Source: Planctomycetota bacterium
GTDB lineage: Bacteria > Planctomycetota > Planctomycetia > Pirellulales > UBA1268
Assembly: GCA_014238855.1 (NCBI GenBank)
Contig: JABAAH010000028.1
Span: 1 to 36,085, forward strand
Reading direction: 5' to 3'
DNA length: 36,085 bases
The notes under the pieces were generated by a model. The model was not told where the DNA came from. It was given only the letters and a program-made list of their open reading frames with translations, and did not search any database. Shown one piece after another: positions 17,796-32,900 of the stretch (positions within the stretch are counted from its first letter, which is position 1; every line of letters begins with the position of its first letter). The position numbers and the translations under genes were made by a program.

Positions 17796-18344
17796 TTATT
17801 TATTTGCAGCAACGATGACTTGAGCGGGACGAACAACCCTGTCATGAAGTACATATCCTCGACTTGTTACACCAATTACTGAACCCGGATCAGCACCGTT
17901 GCCAGGCTGTTGAGAAATCGCTTCGTGTACTGCGGGGTCAAAGACTGCGTTGTCAGTCTCAATATGTTTACAGTTATGATTCTCCAGAATCTTTTCTATT
18001 TGTTTTGCTGTCATTCGAAAACCTTCTCGCAGACTTTCCATATCGGTTGTCTGCTCACTGGCATCGACAGCGCGTTCGATATTATCAAGCACTGGAAGAA
18101 TATCTCTTAGAAGTTCCATTTCTCCATATCGTAGGAGATCTTGCAATTCTCGTTGTCCTCGTTTTCGGACATTGTCGATTTCCGCCTGTGCTCGTAAAAC
18201 CAATTCCTCGGCATCCTTGAGCTTATTCTCAGTATCATCACTGCTTACCGCTGCCTCAGTGTGGTCGGATTTCACTACTGGCACATCGTCGATGTTTTCT
18301 GGTGTTGTTTCGTCTTGCATGGTCGCTTCCTCAATCGTCGTCAT
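17796..18344 (-). CDS. grpE: GrpE nucleotide exchange factor
   Basis: A 182-residue GrpE, the cofactor that releases ADP from DnaK. An acidic N-terminus (to about 45) leads into the long coiled coil with AQAEIDNVRKRGQRE and LLRDILPVLDNIERAV. The beta-domain signature is FDPAVHEAI, then GSVIGVTSRGYVLHDRVVRP and AQVIVA. An internal ATG eight codons in is an alternative start. It follows dnaJ by 27 bases. No dnaK is present in the window, so GrpE and DnaJ must work with a DnaK encoded elsewhere. Confidence 0.95.
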   Translation of the reverse strand: MTTIEEATMQDETTPENIDDVPVVKSDHTEAAVSSDDTENKLKDAEELVLRAQAEIDNVRKRGQRELQDLLRYGEMELLRDILPVLDNIERAVDASEQTTDMESLREGFRMTAKQIEKILENHNCKHIETDNAVFDPAVHEAISQQPGNGADPGSVIGVTSRGYVLHDRVVRPAQVIVAANK

Positions 18345-18371: not shown

Positions 18372-19535
18372 TTAGGTACCATTCGTTGTCTGTGATTCTT
18401 CCGTCGCGTCATTTTGTTCAGGGTTAAAGTATTCCGCGAGCCTCGTGAGAAAACTTGATCGCTTCGGACTGACTTCAGCTTGTTCCTCTTCCGCTAATTC
18501 TCTAAATAATTCTTCGGCCCGGGGCGACAGTTTCTTCGGTACTTCAACATGAATGTGGACATGAAGATCACCGACTCCACGACCACGAACATCAGGCATC
18601 CCAAGACCACGGACACGAATGATATCACCTGGTTGGGTGCCCTTTGGTATTTGAAGGGGTTTTGCTCCGGCTAACGTAGGGGCATCGAGAGTGGTTCCCA
18701 GTGCACACTGACTAAACGTCAATGGCACCTCGCAGTGGAGTTCGTGGCCATCCCGAGTGAGAAACGGATGTTCAAGTATTTCAATAACACAGTAACAGTC
18801 GCCGGGGGGGCCACCGCTTGCTCCCGGCTCGCCCTCACCACCAAGTCGCACTCGGACATCATTGTCAACACCGGGTGGGATGGTTACTTTTCGTTCTACA
18901 GCGACTTCGGTGAGCCCGTGTCCTCTGCAAGCCGAACATTTTTCGCGAATCGTTTTTCCTGCGCCCCGACAGGCCGGGCATGTTGTCTGAAGACGGAAAA
19001 TACCTGTACTCTGTAGAACCTGTCCTTGCCCACCACAGTAGTCACATGTCTGTGGTGAAGTGCCGGCTTTCGCGCCACTACCATTACAGGTCACACACTC
19101 TTCATGTCGTCTGAAATGAATGGTCTTGCTTTCGCCCCGAGAGGCCTCAAGAAGGGTAAGCGATACCTCGCAGAACACATCTCGGCCCTTCTGGGCTCTG
19201 GCTCCACGACCGCCGCCCCCAAACATTCCGTTACCAAAAAGATCACCAAAAGCCTCAAAGATATCAGAGATGTCATTGAACTCATGTTGACCACCGCCGC
19301 CACCGCCATTCTGCAAACCTGCGTGGCCGAATCGGTCATAACGTCCTCTCAGAGAATCATCTGAGAGGACCTCGAAGGCACGGGCAGCCTCTTTAAATTT
19401 GCTTGAGGCCTCTTCGTCCCCCTGGTTTTTATCAGGGTGAAACTGAATTGCGAGCCGTCTGTAGGCTTCGGTTATCTGACCCGAGGTTGCACGTCGTTCA
19501 ATGCCTAATACTTCGTAGTAACATCTTTGATCCAC
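18372..19535 (-). CDS. dnaJ: DnaJ (Hsp40) co-chaperone
   Basis: A 387-residue type I DnaJ. The J domain (about 1-70) contains the HPD tripeptide in IQFHPDKNQG. A Gly/Phe-rich region follows (about 75-115), then four CxxCxGxG zinc repeats (CVTCNGSG, CDYCGGQG, CPACRGAG, CSACRGHG), then two C-terminal beta domains with the usual IPPGVDND and IPKGTQPGDIIRVRGLGMP motifs. The start is GTG 19535, with GGAGG eight bases upstream, so it is well supported. It lies between groEL2 and grpE on the same strand. Confidence 0.96.
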   Translation of the reverse strand: MDQRCYYEVLGIERRATSGQITEAYRRLAIQFHPDKNQGDEEASSKFKEAARAFEVLSDDSLRGRYDRFGHAGLQNGGGGGGQHEFNDISDIFEAFGDLFGNGMFGGGGRGARAQKGRDVFCEVSLTLLEASRGESKTIHFRRHEECVTCNGSGAKAGTSPQTCDYCGGQGQVLQSTGIFRLQTTCPACRGAGKTIREKCSACRGHGLTEVAVERKVTIPPGVDNDVRVRLGGEGEPGASGGPPGDCYCVIEILEHPFLTRDGHELHCEVPLTFSQCALGTTLDAPTLAGAKPLQIPKGTQPGDIIRVRGLGMPDVRGRGVGDLHVHIHVEVPKKLSPRAEELFRELAEEEQAEVSPKRSSFLTRLAEYFNPEQNDATEESQTTNGT

Positions 19536-19656: not shown

Positions 19657-21276
19657 TTAGCGTACGGACCCTTCAATTCGCTGCTTCTTTGCATCCTCTT
19701 TCTCGAGATTTGTCACGAGTGCTTCTGTTGTAAGCAACAGGCCTGAGATGCTAGCTGCGTTTGTGAGTGCCACACGCACAACCTTGACGGGATCAATGAT
19801 TCCGGCCTTTATCATGTCAACGTACTCGCCTTTATTTGCGTCGTAGCCAGTATTAAGATCTTTTTGGGAAACCTCATCAGCAACAACAGCACCATCAATT
19901 CCGGCATTTTCAGCGATTTGCCGTAAAGGTGCTTCGAGGGCACCGAGGATTATATTGATCCCAATTTTTTCGTCACCCTTGGCCTGCGAGCGTGCTTTTT
20001 CTATCGCCTCTCGACATCGCACTAAGGCAACACCACCACCGGGAACAATGCCTTCTTCGACAGCTGCGCGTGTTGCGTGCAGTGCATCTTCAACACGCGC
20101 TTTTTTCTGCTTCATTTCAGCTTCAGTTCCGGCACCAACAGAAACAATGGCAACGCCACCGGTCAGTTTTGCGAGTCGTTCTTGGAGCTTTTCACGATCG
20201 TACTCGCTCTCCGTTGCTTCCAGCTGGTTTCGTATTTGTTGAACCCGAGCCTTCACGTCTGCAGGTTTTCCAGCTCCTTCAACAATCGTTGTTTCATCCT
20301 TGTCAATTGTGATGGTACGGGCAGAACCAAGATGTGAAAGTTCGACGTTTTCAAGTTTAATGCCAAGGTCTTCACTAATCAGGGTGCCACCGGTGAGTGT
20401 GGCAATGTCACCAAGCATTGATTTTCGACGATCACCAAAACCAGGTGCCTTGGCGGCAGAAATGTTCAATACACCGCGGAGCTTATTCACAACGAGTGCA
20501 GTGAGGGCGTCACCGTCAATGTCTTCAGCAATGATGAGAAAAGGCTTTGCTGATTGAGCAACTTTTTCAAGTAACGGCACCAATTCTCGGAGGTTTGATA
20601 TTTTCTTCTCATGAATGAGAATCAGCGCGTCTTCAAACTCACAGGTCATTTCTGCTGGCTTATTGATGAAATACGGCGATATATAGCCCTTGTCAAATTG
20701 CATTCCGTCAACAAACCGAACGGCTGTTTCTGTTGTTTTACCCTCTTCAACAGTGATCACGCCATCCTTGCCAACTTTCTGCAATGCCTCGGATAACAGA
20801 TTCCCAATGAAAGTGTCATTATTTGCACTAATCGAGCCAACCTGAGCAACTTCTTCTGGCCGACTCACTTGGCGTGCGATTTCCATCAGATGTTGTACCG
20901 CGGCTGCGACGCCTTTTTCGATACCCCGACGCACTGCCGTAGGATTACTTCCCGCGACAATGTTGCGAATTCCCTCACGGAATATCGATCGGGCAAGAAC
21001 CGTTGCAGTAGTCGTTCCATCGCCGGCGAGATCAGAGGTTTTTGACGCTACCTCATTGACGAGTTTCGCACCCATGTTTTCAAAAGCATCTTCGAGATCA
21101 ACTTCTTTACTGACAGTCACTCCGTCTTTGGTCACTGTTGGGCCACCAAAACTTTTGTCGATAATCACGTTGCGACCAGTCGGTCCCATTGTGACGGCGA
21201 CAGCATCAGCGAGTTTTTCAACACCCTTGAGAAGTTTTCCACGGGCATAGTCTTCAAAAAGCAATTGCTTAGGCAC
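19657..21276 (-). CDS. groEL: GroEL paralogue 2 (60 kDa chaperonin without GGM tail)
   Basis: A 539-residue chaperonin. GTG start at 21276, preceded by AAGGAGAG about eight bases upstream. The ATPase motif [11 protein letters not shown] is intact and the apical substrate-binding motif is canonical (KGYISPYF). The equatorial domain ends normally, but the C-terminus is [16 protein letters not shown] instead of the flexible Gly-Gly-Met repeat. It lies downstream of groES, separated by 130 bases that contain a terminator-like hairpin, so it may be expressed separately from groEL1-groES. This copy may be specialised in clients or regulation; it should still form rings. Confidence 0.96.
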
Positions 21277-21406: not shown

Positions 21407-21712
21407 TTAATTGAGCACCTTTGCTAGAATATCACTCTCACGGAGGATTTTGACATCGTGGCCGTCCACTTCCATGTCGTTACCTGAATACTTGCCGTAG
21501 ATGACTTCGTCACCAAGCGAAACTAACAAACTGGCACGTTGACCACTCTCCAGAAGGCGGCCAGGTCCCACGGCTACAACGTGTCCACGCTGCGGTTTTT
21601 CTTGAGCTGAGTCGGGCAGCACGATGCCGCCTGATGTACGCTCTTCTGCTTCAACAGGCTCAACAACAATCCTGTCGTCAAGCGGGTGAATTTTTAGTTT
21701 TTTTGCAGCCAT
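21407..21712 (-). CDS. groES: GroES co-chaperonin
   Basis: A 101-residue GroES, the heptameric lid of GroEL. It has the conserved start [13 protein letters not shown], the mobile loop [19 protein letters not shown] with the Ile-Val-Leu contact triad, and the closing [18 protein letters not shown]. The ATG start is preceded by GGAG in TTTGGAGTGAAAA. It follows groEL1 by 86 bases, the reverse of the usual groES-groEL order. Confidence 0.97.
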
Positions 21713-21798: not shown

Positions 21799-23529
<1,731 letters not shown>

Positions 23530-23580
23530 TCATGAGATGGGCTGTTCTGGCAGCCACATCGATATTCAGCAAGGTAAGAA

Positions 23581-23596
23581 TGCAACCTTTGTGCCG
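23581..23596 (-). promoter_or_regulatory. Sigma54-like -24/-12 promoter upstream of groEL1
   Basis: On the minus strand CGGCACAAAGGTTGCA matches the -24/-12 consensus TGGCAC-N5-TTGCA except for the first T, with exact GG-to-GC spacing. The expected start near 23570 leaves a leader of about 80 bases before GTG 23490. The upstream activator site and factor are not visible. It is a pattern match only. Confidence 0.4.
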
Positions 23597-23752
23597 GAGT
23601 GCCAAAAGTGGGGAATTTTTTTTTTGCCCCTGATTTTGATGGGTTTCTGTTGCTGTCGATGAAATAAGTAGTTGTTCGTCGATGAGGGCAATGCCAGACG
23701 GTGCCTTTTTGGCAGGTTTGGCACGTGACGTCATAAATTCTTGGCACCCGGA

Positions 23753-24817
23753 TTACTTTGGAGACCAATCAATGTCCCCTTCAAGATTTCTACAGAATGC
23801 AGCAAGAAGGTCCGCTGTGTTATCGGCATCCTCCAATGAGATAGTTTCTACGGCAGAATGCATGTATCGATTGGGTACGCTCACAAGACCGGTTGCAACA
23901 CCATCGCGAGAGACCTGAAGGACGTTGGCATCCGTCGGGGTTGCTCGGCCAAATGCTGCCAATTGAACTGGAATATCTTGTGTTTCACCAGCCTTAAGAA
24001 GTCGTTCGACTACTTGGGGGTGCATATTTGGACCTCGATACACTACCGGTCCTTGCCCAAGTGAGATATCACCTTCGGTTTTCTTGTCAATCGTCGGGCA
24101 ATCTGTTGCATGAGTGACATCGACAGCGATTGCGACATGGGGATTTACCCGGTGACAGCTCGTTTTTGCACCGCGTAGTCCAATTTCTTCTTGTACTGTT
24201 GATGCCACCGAAAGCGCGCAGGGTAGGGGACCAGCGGCTACTGCCCGGCGAAATGCCTCCACAACAACCCAGAGACCAATTTTGTCGTCCATAGCTACAG
24301 ATGCTGCAAGGCCATTTCGGAGCGGCTGATATTTAAGAGCAAATGTCGCGGAGTCTCCCACACAAACAACCTGCTCTGCTTCTTCTTTTGTGCGAGCACC
24401 AATATCGATCCATAGGTCCTTCATCTTCGGAACCGTCTTTCGCTCTTCGTCGGTAAGGAGGTGTATGGGTTTTCTACTCATGACCCCAGGAACCCCACCG
24501 TTGGAAGTCCAGATGACGACATGAGCCCCAATGAGTTGCATGGGGTCCCACCCGCCAATTGGTTGTACAGAGATATATCCATCACCGTCGATATGCTGCA
24601 CAATGAGCCCAATCTGATCACAATGCCCTGCCAGAAACATTCGGCACGCACCATCCGGGTTTGCTGTTCCGATAACATTTCCGTGTGCATCGGTCTCGAT
24701 TTTTTCAGCACAGGATTTTAGGTATTCACGGACAATTTTTTGAACGGGCTCCTCATAGCCAGAAGCACTTGGTGTTTCAAGAATCCTGACCAGGAAATCA
24801 TGGGCAGCAGTATCCAA
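23753..24817 (-). CDS. M42-family metallo-aminopeptidase (glutamyl aminopeptidase/endoglucanase-like)
   Basis: A 354-residue cytoplasmic peptidase. The M42/M20-clan di-metal ligands are present: AGHCDQIGLI (HxD), AMDDKIGLW (bridging Asp), VQEEIGLRGA (catalytic Glu pair), AVDVTHATD, and the last His in NRYMHSAVE. TTG start at 24817, supported by AAGGAG eight bases upstream. Such enzymes are dodecameric aminopeptidases that trim peptides; older annotations as cellulase are not supported by mechanism. It is divergent from hom across 186 bases. Confidence 0.88.
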   Translation of the reverse strand: MDTAAHDFLVRILETPSASGYEEPVQKIVREYLKSCAEKIETDAHGNVIGTANPDGACRMFLAGHCDQIGLIVQHIDGDGYISVQPIGGWDPMQLIGAHVVIWTSNGGVPGVMSRKPIHLLTDEERKTVPKMKDLWIDIGARTKEEAEQVVCVGDSATFALKYQPLRNGLAASVAMDDKIGLWVVVEAFRRAVAAGPLPCALSVASTVQEEIGLRGAKTSCHRVNPHVAIAVDVTHATDCPTIDKKTEGDISLGQGPVVYRGPNMHPQVVERLLKAGETQDIPVQLAAFGRATPTDANVLQVSRDGVATGLVSVPNRYMHSAVETISLEDADNTADLLAAFCRNLEGDIDWSPK

Positions 24818-25003: not shown

Positions 25004-26299
25004 ATGACGAGTCCTATACGTATTGGCCTTATCGGCATGGGAACGGTAGGCACTGGCGTTGTACGTGTTCTTCAGGATTCACCAGAACATATTTCGCGGC
25101 AGGCCGGCTCTGAAGTGATTGTTGAACATGTCGTCGTCCAGAATCCTGGTAAGCAACGAAGTATCAAACTGCCGAGCGACAAAGTATCAAATGATTTCGC
25201 TCGAGTTAGAGATAATCCAGAAATCAGCATCGTTGCTCTTCTTTTGGGCGGCCTTGAGCCTGCTCGGACACTGGCGATCGAACTTCTAAAGAGTGGGAAA
25301 GATTTAGTTACAGCGAATAAGGCGTTACTCGCAGAGCACGGCCCCGAACTCTTTGGAGTGGCTCATGAAATGGGACGGTCCATTGCTTTTGAGGCGGCTA
25401 TTGCGGGAGGCATTCCGATTGTGGCAGCTATATCAGAATGTCTCACGGGAAACCGGATATCCTCGATTCGTGGAATTCTAAATGGAACAAGTAATTTCAT
25501 CCTGACGAAAATGGAACAGGACGGCAGTGATTATCACGAGGTGTTATCGCTCGCGCAGGCTGAAGGATATGCGGAAGCTGACCCAACTATGGATGTTGAT
25601 GGCACTGACGCCACTCAAAAGCTCGCTCTGCTGACGCATCTTGCATTCGGCCAGTGGGTACCATGGGCCAGTATTCCACGCTTTGGGCTCGAATCTATTG
25701 ATCAAGAACTCTTACGTTTCGCAGATGAGCTAGGATGCAGAATTCGCGTGGTGGCTGATGCATGTCGTAGTAAGGATACGTTGTCACTACGAGTTGGCCC
25801 TGCACTTGTACGGAAGGGCACACCTCTTGCAGAGACACAAGGTGTCTTCAACGCAGTGAGTGTTGCGGGGCACGCGGTTGGACCCTTGTTTTTTCATGGG
25901 CTCGGTGCGGGGCAGATGCCAACGGCGTCGGCGGTTGTTGCAGACATCATCAGCACTGTTGTTGGACGGTCAGCCATTACGTTTTCGCAATCGGGATTGG
26001 TTGGAACAATGCCGAATCCAGCCACCGTTGTTTCTGGCAGCGATAGCCCGAGCTTCCTGCGGCTCCATGTGACAGATCAGCCGGGGGTTCTGGCCGATTT
26101 GACCGGAATTCTGGGTGTAGAGGGAATTTCCATTGATTCAGTTATTCAACATCCTGCCGAGAATGGAGAAAATGGAGTGCCACTGGTTATCATGACCCAT
26201 TGTTGTAGTGCCACAGCAATTGATCGGGCAGTCAGAGCATTGGATCACAACCCTGCGGTCACGAGTCCGATAAGCTGTCTCCCAGTGATCAATGAGTAG
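25004..26299 (+). CDS. hom: Homoserine dehydrogenase
   Basis: A 431-residue enzyme that reduces aspartate-semialdehyde to homoserine. The NAD(P) Rossmann motif is GLIGMGTVGTGVV at the N-terminus. TANKALLAEHG and the substrate region RGILNGTSNFILTKM are canonical, with AEADPTMDVDGTDATQKLA following. A C-terminal ACT domain (about 345-431; LRLHVTDQPGVLADLTGIL) suggests feedback control, probably by threonine. It is the first gene of an operon with the phosphoglycerate-mutase-like gene (29 bases later) and lysC. Confidence 0.96.
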   Translation: MTSPIRIGLIGMGTVGTGVVRVLQDSPEHISRQAGSEVIVEHVVVQNPGKQRSIKLPSDKVSNDFARVRDNPEISIVALLLGGLEPARTLAIELLKSGKDLVTANKALLAEHGPELFGVAHEMGRSIAFEAAIAGGIPIVAAISECLTGNRISSIRGILNGTSNFILTKMEQDGSDYHEVLSLAQAEGYAEADPTMDVDGTDATQKLALLTHLAFGQWVPWASIPRFGLESIDQELLRFADELGCRIRVVADACRSKDTLSLRVGPALVRKGTPLAETQGVFNAVSVAGHAVGPLFFHGLGAGQMPTASAVVADIISTVVGRSAITFSQSGLVGTMPNPATVVSGSDSPSFLRLHVTDQPGVLADLTGILGVEGISIDSVIQHPAENGENGVPLVIMTHCCSATAIDRAVRALDHNPAVTSPISCLPVINE

Positions 26300-29983: not shown

Positions 29984-32900
29984 TTATGGACTGTCTTTTT
30001 CGGTTTTTCGAGTTCTAAGACCACTCAGGATAGCGTCCTGTTTTGTTCGAAGTTCTTCGAATTCAGCGAGTTGTTCGCGCTCTTTTGTGACTATTTGTGA
30101 AGGCGCATTCGCGACAAATTTTTCATTGCCTAGTTTTCCACGTTTGGCTTTTATGGCCGTATCAAGCTTGGCGACCTCCCGGCTGAGCCGTAGTATTTCT
30201 GCCTCCACATCAATGAAGTCTGCCAGGTCAATAAAGATATCACAGTCTGCTGCAGAAATTTCAGCGGCATTCACTATCGGTTCAACATCAGGACCCAGAG
30301 CGACTACCTGACACGCAGTCATCGCTTCAAGGGCAGACGCCATGGGAGTGAGCAGTCTCTGTTGCGGCGGTGGTGTCCGGATTGCTATGTCCACGGAAGT
30401 GCGTGGAGGTACGTTTTGGCGAGACCTGATTTCTCTGACTGCGGTAACAATGTGTAGAAACGTATGGAACTGTGTTTCGGTAGTTCGGTCCTGCCACGAG
30501 TCTGGCGGAGTTGGCCACGCTGCTAGCATAATGGATGGGGGTATTGGCTTCTTGTCCCACGGTGTGGTCCGGTTTTCATATTCCTGTGAGAGATACTGCC
30601 ATATCTCTTCAGTTACGAATGGCATAATCGGATGAAGAAGTCTCAAAATTGTATCAAGGCCAAGAAGCAACATCTGGCACGCTTGTTGCTTTTGTGTTGC
30701 GTTCTGCAGTCGGGGCTTACAAAGTTCAAGGTAGGCACTGCAGAACTCATCCCATACAAATGCGTAAAGAACACGAGCGGCTTCCGCGAAGTGGTATTCC
30801 TCGATGCTGCCTGTAACCTCAATAGAGACAGACGCTAGCCGACTTAACAACCAGCGGTCCTCCAAGGGCAGGTGTTCAAGTTCAGCAAAATGAAGATGTG
30901 TGTCAAGATCGGTAACATCCTCGAGATGCATGAGTACAAACCGAGTTGCATTCCAGAGTTTATTGGAGAAATTACGTCCTGACTCGAAACGTTCGCTGAC
31001 CGCTGGACCACGGGGCAGGGCTAGGTCAGCATCCTGCGTTGCCCACTGTGTTCTGAAGTCTTCTTTGCATTTCGGGCAGGTGATCCGAGCTTTCGTACGA
31101 TTCTGGTTGGTTTGATCAATTCGGCTGGTACAGGTTGGGCATTGGTATTCCACTGGCATACGGACATCTTGTGTTTCGGTTGCCATGGTCGCCATGCCGA
31201 AACGAAGGGCGTCGGCCCCAAGGAGGGTGATGACATCGAGTGGATCGACGCCATTCCCTTTACTTTTGCTCATTGTCTCACCATAGCGGTCAAGTATCTT
31301 TGGATGAATTGACACATGATGAAACGGGATTTTACCGGTATTAAAAATCCCTAAGATTACCATTCTCGCTACCCAGAGCGTGATGATGTCTCGACTTGTA
31401 ATGAGTGTACTTGTTGGATAGAAACGCGCGAGTTCAGCGGTATTTTCTGGCCAGCCAAGGGTGGAATGAGGCCAGAGTGCAGATGAAAACCATGTGTCAA
31501 GTACGTCCGGATCGCGAAGCACTGGCTTTCCTTGGATAGTCTCAACGCCGAGCGATTCATCAGCAGAGCATACGAACCAATCCCCGGGTTCGTCTTCTTT
31601 CGGCTCTGTTCCATCAAAAGTCCATGCAACGTTTGGTCTTTCAGAAAAAGTGGTTTCGAGGTCCTGACGAGTGATACCCATGATATGCCATATTGGAATC
31701 TGGTGACCCCACCACAGTTGCCGGCTCACTGGCCAGTCACGTTTTTCTCCAAGCCAGTCAAGATAACTTTTGGCATAACGCTCAGGATGAATCTGAATGT
31801 TTTTCTCTCGTACGGCATCGAGTGCTGGATCTGCAAGGTCTGCCATACGAATGAACCATTGGTCGGCAAGGTATGGCTCTATAGGTGTTTTCGATCTGTC
31901 AGAATGTGCTAATTCAATCGTTCGATCTTCTACCTCGAGAAGTTGTTGGGCGATTTCGAGGTCCGTGATCACTTGGACCCGGGCCTTCTTCATGCTTAAT
32001 CCTTCGTAGGGCCCAGCCATTTGATTGAGTGTCCCGTCAGGATTCATGATATTGACCATAGGCAGGTCATTTCGAATCCCAACGTCATAATCATTTGGAT
32101 CGTGCGCTGGGGTGATTTTCACGCATCCTGATCCCATCCCTGGTTTAGCCCATTCGTCGGCAATCAGTGGAATAGAGCGGCCTAAGAGCGGAAGGGTGAC
32201 GAGTCTTCCGTCATGAGCCATTGCGACAAGCTTCTCGAGAAGTGGCAAATGACTTTCTCGCCGATCTTCGGCCGATGCGATAGCACGTTTGATATCGGCG
32301 TGCTCCTTTTCTGAAGCATTTTTTAATTTGTCATGAAGTTCTCGTATTGTTTGTTCGAGAGCTTTCGCTGGCTGCGGATGAACGGCTATTGCCGTGTCAC
32401 CGAGTAATGTTTCAGGTCGTGTTGTGGCAACACTAACTTCTTTTGGTTCACCGGGCTTTGGGTTCAGTACGGAATAGCGGATGTGCCAAAAGTGCCCTTT
32501 CACCTCCTCGTGGAAAACTTCATCATCACTCACAGCAGTTTGGAGAAATGTATCCCAGTTCACTAATCGTTTGCCACGACGCACGAGACCCTTTTGGAAG
32601 AGACGAAAGAACGTTTCCCGAACAGCAAGGCCACACTGGTCGTCAAGCGTAAAGCGAGTGCGATCCCAGTCACAACTTGCACCAATATCACGTAGCTGTC
32701 CGAGGATGCGCTTTTCATACTGTGTTTTCCACTCCCAGATTCGTTCGACAAGTTGTGGTCGGCCAAGGTCGTGACGCGAAACACCTTCCTCTTCGAGAAG
32801 TCGTCGTTCCACAACTGCTTGCGTTGCTATGCCAGCGTGATCAGTTCCTGGCATCCAAAGTGTCACATAACCTTGCATTCTCTTGGTACGGACAAGGATA

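Follow-up and report, generated by a model that had tools for sequence, protein, structure and literature searches.

Heat-shock chaperones are usually placed under the control of sigma-32, HrcA, HspR or CtsR. The HrcA/CIRCE system is repressor-based and coordinates the groE and dnaK operons upon heat, while the RpoH regulon relies on an alternative sigma factor for the positive control of groE, dnaK, clpB and ibp. A sigma-54 promoter in front of a chaperonin operon is known from Bradyrhizobium, where the NifA-controlled groESL is one of several copies and is tied to nitrogen fixation. In Myxococcus xanthus, HsfA/HsfB, a two-component system with an NtrC-like regulator, control the heat-shock gene lonD, but to our knowledge groEL and dnaK have not been found to be jointly under their control.

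For planctomycetes, sigma-54 promoters were predicted to be enriched before the gene categories GroEL, GroES, GrpE, DnaJ, DnaK and IbpA, with a concentration in Planctomycetia and fewer cases in Phycisphaerae (PMC12316311, PLoS One 2025). The regulon is predicted there at the level of gene categories and the chaperones are given no assigned activator in the part on which we draw; the main text mentions neither UAS, upstream activating, TGCCA nor HrcA. In Rhodopirellula baltica, heat induces GroEL, Cpn10, DnaJ, GrpE, DnaK, ClpB, Hsp20 and SecA, and rpoH, rpoE and rpoN are not heat-induced (PMC2754498). HrcA has been stated to be absent from Planctomycetes, which seem to encode RpoH (PMC4989314).

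Here we analyse a stretch of 36,085 nucleotides (hereafter the window), a contig of a 3.1 Mb metagenome-assembled planctomycete genome that is 90.9% complete. It carries a chaperonin operon for which an earlier note had proposed a sigma-54 promoter. The locus resembles the Bradyrhizobium groESL in having such a promoter before a chaperonin operon, but differs from it in that a general chaperone set is concerned and the enhancer sequence is another one. With the RpoH regulon it shares the use of an alternative sigma factor; sigma-54, however, belongs to another sigma family, recognises another promoter and needs an ATP-driven activator. We regard it as very probable that a sigma-54 promoter with its own enhancer and a dedicated activator constitutes the heat-shock regulon of a lineage in which HrcA/CIRCE was not found.

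The promoter and the putative enhancer upstream of groEL1

The operon lies on the minus strand and begins with groEL1 (21799-23490; Cpn60, 563 aa, GTG start, Pfam PF00118), followed by groES (21407-21712; Cpn10, 101 aa, PF00166) and groEL2 (19657-21276; Cpn60, 539 aa, PF00118). The genes dnaJ (18372-19535; 387 aa, Pfam DnaJ and DnaJ_C) and grpE (17796-18344; 182 aa, PF01025), on the same strand, are probably carried on the groEL1 transcript, as strand and short gaps suggest in the case of dnaJ. In front of groEL1, positions 23596 to 23581 of the minus strand read CGGCACAAAGGTTGCA, with GG at 23595-23594 and GC at 23583-23582, i.e. GG-N10-GC with the spacing that sigma-54 needs, and agree with the sigma-54 consensus (near TGGCACG-N4-TTGCW) at 11 of 13 positions. 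The 3' end of this element lies at a distance of 90 nt from the GTG start codon at 23490, which is directly preceded by AAGGAG and is kept in relatives; transcription would start near 23570. The earlier note had described a GGCAC-N5-TTGCA pattern of exact spacing about 90 bases before groEL1, and this description proved accurate.

Within the window the motif is, taken alone, modest evidence. GGCAC-N5-TTGCW is present in three exact copies against 0.19 expected, and a longer sigma-54 consensus with 3 mismatches allowed gives 47 sites against 36 expected. The two other exact copies, one inside the homoserine dehydrogenase gene (25817-25831, plus strand) and one antisense in the valyl-tRNA synthetase gene (30676-30690, plus strand), are probably due to chance. 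It is the conservation in relatives that indicates a real element. We collected 110 loci from the relatives with the closest GroEL1 sequences, most of them labelled Pirellulales, Planctomycetaceae or Planctomycetota, and dropped 12 that were identical to another one over the last 120 nt, which left 98 distinct upstream regions. These were scanned over 300 nt for sites with the required GG and GC, scored at 13 positions, with at least 11/13 as the strict score. On the sense strand 90 of the 98 reach this score, against 1.1% of simulated controls (sequences drawn from the dinucleotide steps of each stretch itself) and 0/98 on the antisense strand. In each of the eight regions below the strict score within 300 nt, an enhancer-like palindrome is present together with a GG-N10-GC site that is weaker or lies farther away. 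Within the genus, eight genomes contain the stretch; CCGGCACAAAGGTTGCA is identical in six of them and differs at two to three inner positions in two. Across these homologous upstream regions, to which the earlier note had pointed, the motif is retained in close relatives and not lost. As part of the explanation as a whole, we thus hold it to be highly probable that the groEL1-groES-groEL2 operon is driven by a sigma-54 promoter whose -24/-12 element is this motif of 16 bases.

The earlier note was right about the promoter and overlooked two further elements, a CTGCCA at 23548-23553, to which we return below, and a putative enhancer (upstream activator site). The latter, CTGCCAAAAAGGCAC, occupies positions 23701-23715 of the minus strand, 105 nt upstream from the GG in the -24 element, and is a conserved palindrome; its core, TGCCAWWWNGGCA, has no second exact match anywhere in the window. 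Directly upstream, at 23718-23726 of the same strand, the sequence suggests a possible second half-site, CGTGCCAAA. In a word count, CTGCCA or TGGCAG was found upstream of the sigma-54 sites of 76/93 groEL1 genes (9.0 expected; 93 of the 110 loci kept after removal of 12 duplicates and 5 low scores) and of 26/26 dnaK genes (2.5 expected; kept from 30 loci, themselves taken from 37 genomes with a match). The distance from the -24 element is 80-120 bp in groEL1 and mainly 110-160 bp in dnaK. When the groEL1 regions are aligned, the word becomes a palindrome, CTGCCA-AAAT-GGCAC, the right half of which is mostly GGCAC or GGCAT. The palindrome of dnaK mostly has the opposite orientation to that of groEL1 and one weaker half, and before dnaK in the genome of the window one good half is left. 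The full dyad CTGCCA...TGGCAG is rare (4/93 in groEL1, 1/26 in dnaK).

For scoring we used TGCCANNNYGGCA (10 positions) in the range of -85 to -165 relative to the sigma-54 site. Scores of 9-10/10 were obtained in 88 of 97 testable groEL1 upstream regions and in 0.6% of the controls, while in the other nine no good enhancer is present in that range. Since the groEL1 and dnaK sequences scored are those from which the consensus had been derived, more weight is given to a decoy window 250-330 bp upstream, where the score was met in 1/91 groEL1 upstream regions, and to the phylum-wide results presented in the next section. Judging from its place, the palindrome would bind an activator, not a repressor. 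The open-access PMC literature that we searched yielded no report of this enhancer or of its activator.

Distribution of the enhancer and promoter among planctomycetes

A sigma-54 score of at least 11/13 was also reached by 26 of the 30 dnaK upstream regions (controls 1.5%), one of the remaining four being cut short; in the genome of the window, dnaK is followed by clpB. We then searched for an exact composite pattern, consisting of the enhancer, a distance of 78-108 bp and GGCAC-N5-TTGC. In 39 genomes of the order, taken as Pirellulales from the labels of the nearest GroEL1 relatives, it returned 23 sites in 22 genomes and none with the pattern reversed as a control; 21 of these sites belong to groEL1, as identified by position, and two precede Pfam HSP20 genes. 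The genome of the window also has a third GroEL copy, situated outside the window (G000:C149:6512-8116), with no composite match of enhancer and promoter. In 294 genomes of the phylum, the pattern returned 56 sites in 47 genomes with 24 family labels, against 2 sites for the control. The modest numbers of genomes (22/39 and 47/294) are partly a consequence of the strictness of the pattern.

Of the 56 phylum sites, 46 were inspected, in two rounds of 29 and 40 with 23 common to both; in one region (L347) the composite site was not located on inspection. In 44 of the 46, a same-strand gene for GroEL, DnaK, ClpB or Hsp20 follows within 1.5 kb; the chaperone labels derive from tblastn with proteins of the window or its relatives; the 40-region round includes eight Hsp20 sites, five confirmed by Pfam and three assigned by tblastn only. 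One of the two remaining sites has no recognised gene and the other precedes secA; in this latter case, seen in one genome (G320, L385 position 9664), both the enhancer and the sigma-54 promoter are upstream of the gene. The occurrence of the composite before clpB and hsp20 is not circular, since only upstream regions of groEL1 and dnaK had gone into it.

The genome of the window has sigma-54 motifs before two P-II genes (glnB, glnK) and the ammonium transporter gene amtB, which provided the motif scan with a positive control. At these three promoters the paired TGCCA...GGCA enhancer is absent, amtB having a lone TGGCA at -92, so that the enhancer marks, within the sigma-54 regulon, the branch that serves chaperones. 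As one enhancer and promoter serves groEL, dnaK, hsp20 and clpB across families, the set would represent the heat-shock regulon of the lineage; it looks like a general chaperone (heat-shock) sigma-54 regulon in many planctomycete families rather than a NifA-like oddity. The predicted enrichment of promoters and the heat induction in R. baltica, as given in the respective texts, fit such a regulon (PMC12316311; PMC2754498). The earlier note had also presented such control of chaperonins as known mainly from a few rhizobial copies, and here the surprise becomes smaller, as planctomycete cases were among the predictions of 2025 (PMC12316311).

Alternative modes of control

The genome encodes a complete RpoN of 539 aa with the Pfam domains AID, CBD and DBD. 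Near rpoN there is also a helix-turn-helix and receiver-like protein (L184:4024-4761, domains assigned by eye). HrcA was found in none of the 39 genomes of the order, 30 of which are at least 90% complete, with a search that was positive in 7 of 14 known genomes. The window has no match to CIRCE (TTAGCACTC-N9-GAGTGCTAA) with up to 3 mismatches, and CIRCE-like scores in the 98 groEL1 upstream regions are near those of controls (34 at 11/18 or more against 23 expected, none above 12). The locus differs from HrcA/CIRCE systems, in which the groE and dnaK operons answer to a repressor. The earlier note had found no HrcA/CIRCE repeat and left rpoN to be confirmed, and on both points its expectation agrees with our searches. 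Its further idea, that chaperonin expression would depend on an enhancer-binding activator, follows from a sigma-54 promoter and gains support from the promoter, the presence of RpoN and the lack of a recognisable HrcA.

A basal promoter is usual for housekeeping chaperonins, and the operon might be driven by a sigma-32-like or a housekeeping sigma-70 promoter, the sigma-54 site being secondary and used for nitrogen or stationary-phase needs. Many of these genomes indeed encode a sigma factor of 282-330 aa that is distantly RpoH-like and matches the RpoH model with up to 162 bits. This best score falls well below the cut-off of that model (TIGR02392, 323 bits), which was reached in 0/39 genomes, although rpoH is said to be present in R. 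baltica in the text of PMC2754498, a statement repeated in PMC4989314. Before the groEL1 genes the sigma-32 consensus CTTGAA-N11..16-CCCCATNT stands at control level, with at least 10/13 in 14 of the 98 upstream regions against 18 expected. A sigma-70-type promoter was not found at 23480-23900, but in these 421 bases 0.5 would be expected, which gives the result little power and makes it a weak objection. Furthermore, the absence of the enhancer from the three nitrogen promoters examined does not accord with a secondary role of the site in nitrogen supply. On balance we consider control by sigma-32 or sigma-70 unlikely.

Repressors bind palindromes just as activators do, and the palindrome may be the operator of a heat-shock repressor, with a general activator working the sigma-54 promoter. 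The second element overlooked before, CTGCCA at 23548-23553 of the minus strand, is relevant here: located at about +18 relative to the predicted start, a position from which repression could act, this half-site copy is found (once as TTGCCA) 23-28 nt past the promoter in 79/90 relatives and, over 70 nt downstream, in 5.5% of controls. Across the phylum, however, it is rare (2/40 sites), and the main palindrome, at -85 to -165 relative to the -24 element, is distant from the polymerase, as is usual for an enhancer. A sigma-54 promoter is inactive unless an activator is present, so there is no need to postulate a repressor. A repressor operator is, in our view, decidedly improbable, and our guess is that the +18 CTGCCA would be a fine-tuning site for the same regulator that binds the enhancer. 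A reading of this element as an RNA hairpin was dropped after a look by eye. In several relatives, CCGACAAAA, which resembles it, is present in dnaK promoters at roughly this position.

The earlier note had compared the locus with the rhizobial groESL copies under NifA, that is, with control of the sigma-54 promoter by a NifA- or NtrC-type nitrogen regulator. TGT-N10-ACA, which we take to be the NifA site, is present at 23543-23558, but this is downstream of the promoter; the near upstream region of the -24 element has none, the next match lying more than 500 bp upstream at 24104, and such matches are not enriched in the window (8 against 11.4 expected). Moreover, the P-II and ammonium transporter promoters do not have the paired enhancer, which is instead common to dnaK, hsp20 and clpB, and the targets are general chaperones across many families. 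The comparison with NifA does not hold, and a nitrogen regulator is very unlikely to control the operon. Finally, a chance motif devoid of function, to which the location of the two other exact copies in coding DNA might point, is scarcely conceivable given that enhancer, promoter and gene keep their order and spacing throughout the order and, more sparsely, the phylum.

The candidate activator and the proposed heat-shock response

If the operon is governed by an activator at its enhancer, the genome offers six candidates, i.e. strong PF00158 enhancer-binding proteins (A-F). Protein A is a REC-AAA-HTH regulator encoded between mutL and pnp (contig C111) together with a small histidine kinase in which Pfam detects HisKA and HATPase domains alone. 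B is encoded beside glnB and has a weak REC match below the cut-off; C is FHA-GAF-AAA-HTH (GAF below the cut-off; L179:3990-5966, contig C88), an arrangement of sensors that is less common in such activators; D is an AAA-HTH protein lacking a sensor; and E and F are of the REC type, E adjoining a larger kinase-like protein, as judged by eye. On contig C55 (L180:2456-6050), a frame of 841 codons has its end overlapped by a downstream activator gene of sensorless AAA-HTH type on the same strand. A choice of the activator by conservation alone failed, as the four families A, C, D and E are all conserved in the order, including the helix-turn-helix, in a sample in which 78 of 90 loci were kept among the matches listed and several of the 12 left out belong to family A. 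Searches with tblastn for the six activators of the genome revealed no activator gene near the groEL1, dnaK or composite loci collected from the order.

A single case in the phylum points to family A. In a distant planctomycete (G096), a kinase, a regulator, the enhancer, the sigma-54 site and dnaK follow each other in a row, with the enhancer starting 46 bp past the stop codon of the regulator. The kinase is 40% identical to that of A, the regulator is 52% identical to A, 38% to E and 47% to C over the AAA part, and its recognition helix, ERTLYRKIK, is the same as in A. This link of kinase and regulator to dnaK was seen in 1/40 phylum regions; three others of the 40 have activators, two of them at least 6 kb off and one 1.6 kb upstream with a gene between. 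With this one supporting case, we tentatively propose A and its small histidine kinase as the activator, an assignment that falls somewhat short of probable. Such a system would, like HsfA/HsfB of M. xanthus, be a two-component NtrC-like regulator of heat-shock genes. In five regions (L392, L394, L396, L398 and L399), a CheY-like single-domain response regulator, confirmed by Pfam in L398, heads a groES-groEL operon with the composite upstream. Response regulators as first operon genes in five distant regions hint at two-component signalling.

In the model that we favour, RNA polymerase with RpoN would wait at the groEL1 promoter as a closed complex, and a dedicated AAA+ enhancer-binding protein would bind TGCCAWWWYGGCA about 110 bp upstream and open this complex when the cells meet protein-damaging stress. 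Sigma-54 would accordingly be the factor transcribing from the promoter and heat the presumed signal, and the same enhancer and promoter would serve dnaK in this genome and hsp20, clpB, groEL and dnaK in other planctomycete families. A more speculative extension, which we put forward with greater reserve than the choice of A itself, is a phylum-wide two-component switch, in which protein damage is sensed by a small histidine kinase, and the REC-AAA-HTH activator phosphorylated by it binds the TGCCAWWWYGGCA enhancers. If true, this switch at groEL, dnaK, clpB and hsp20 would replace HrcA or sigma-32.

With central chaperones under a sigma-54 promoter and one enhancer, an ATP-driven activator would be required for their expression, which could be shut off completely in its absence. 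The sequence of the enhancer (TGCCAAAATGGCA) makes the heat sensor of planctomycetes directly testable, by pull-down or deletion. The results suggest that the heat-shock response of planctomycetes is organised unusually, and a sigma-54 heat-shock regulon would explain the remark, in the text of PMC2754498, that the heat-shock cascade of R. baltica seems "significantly different".
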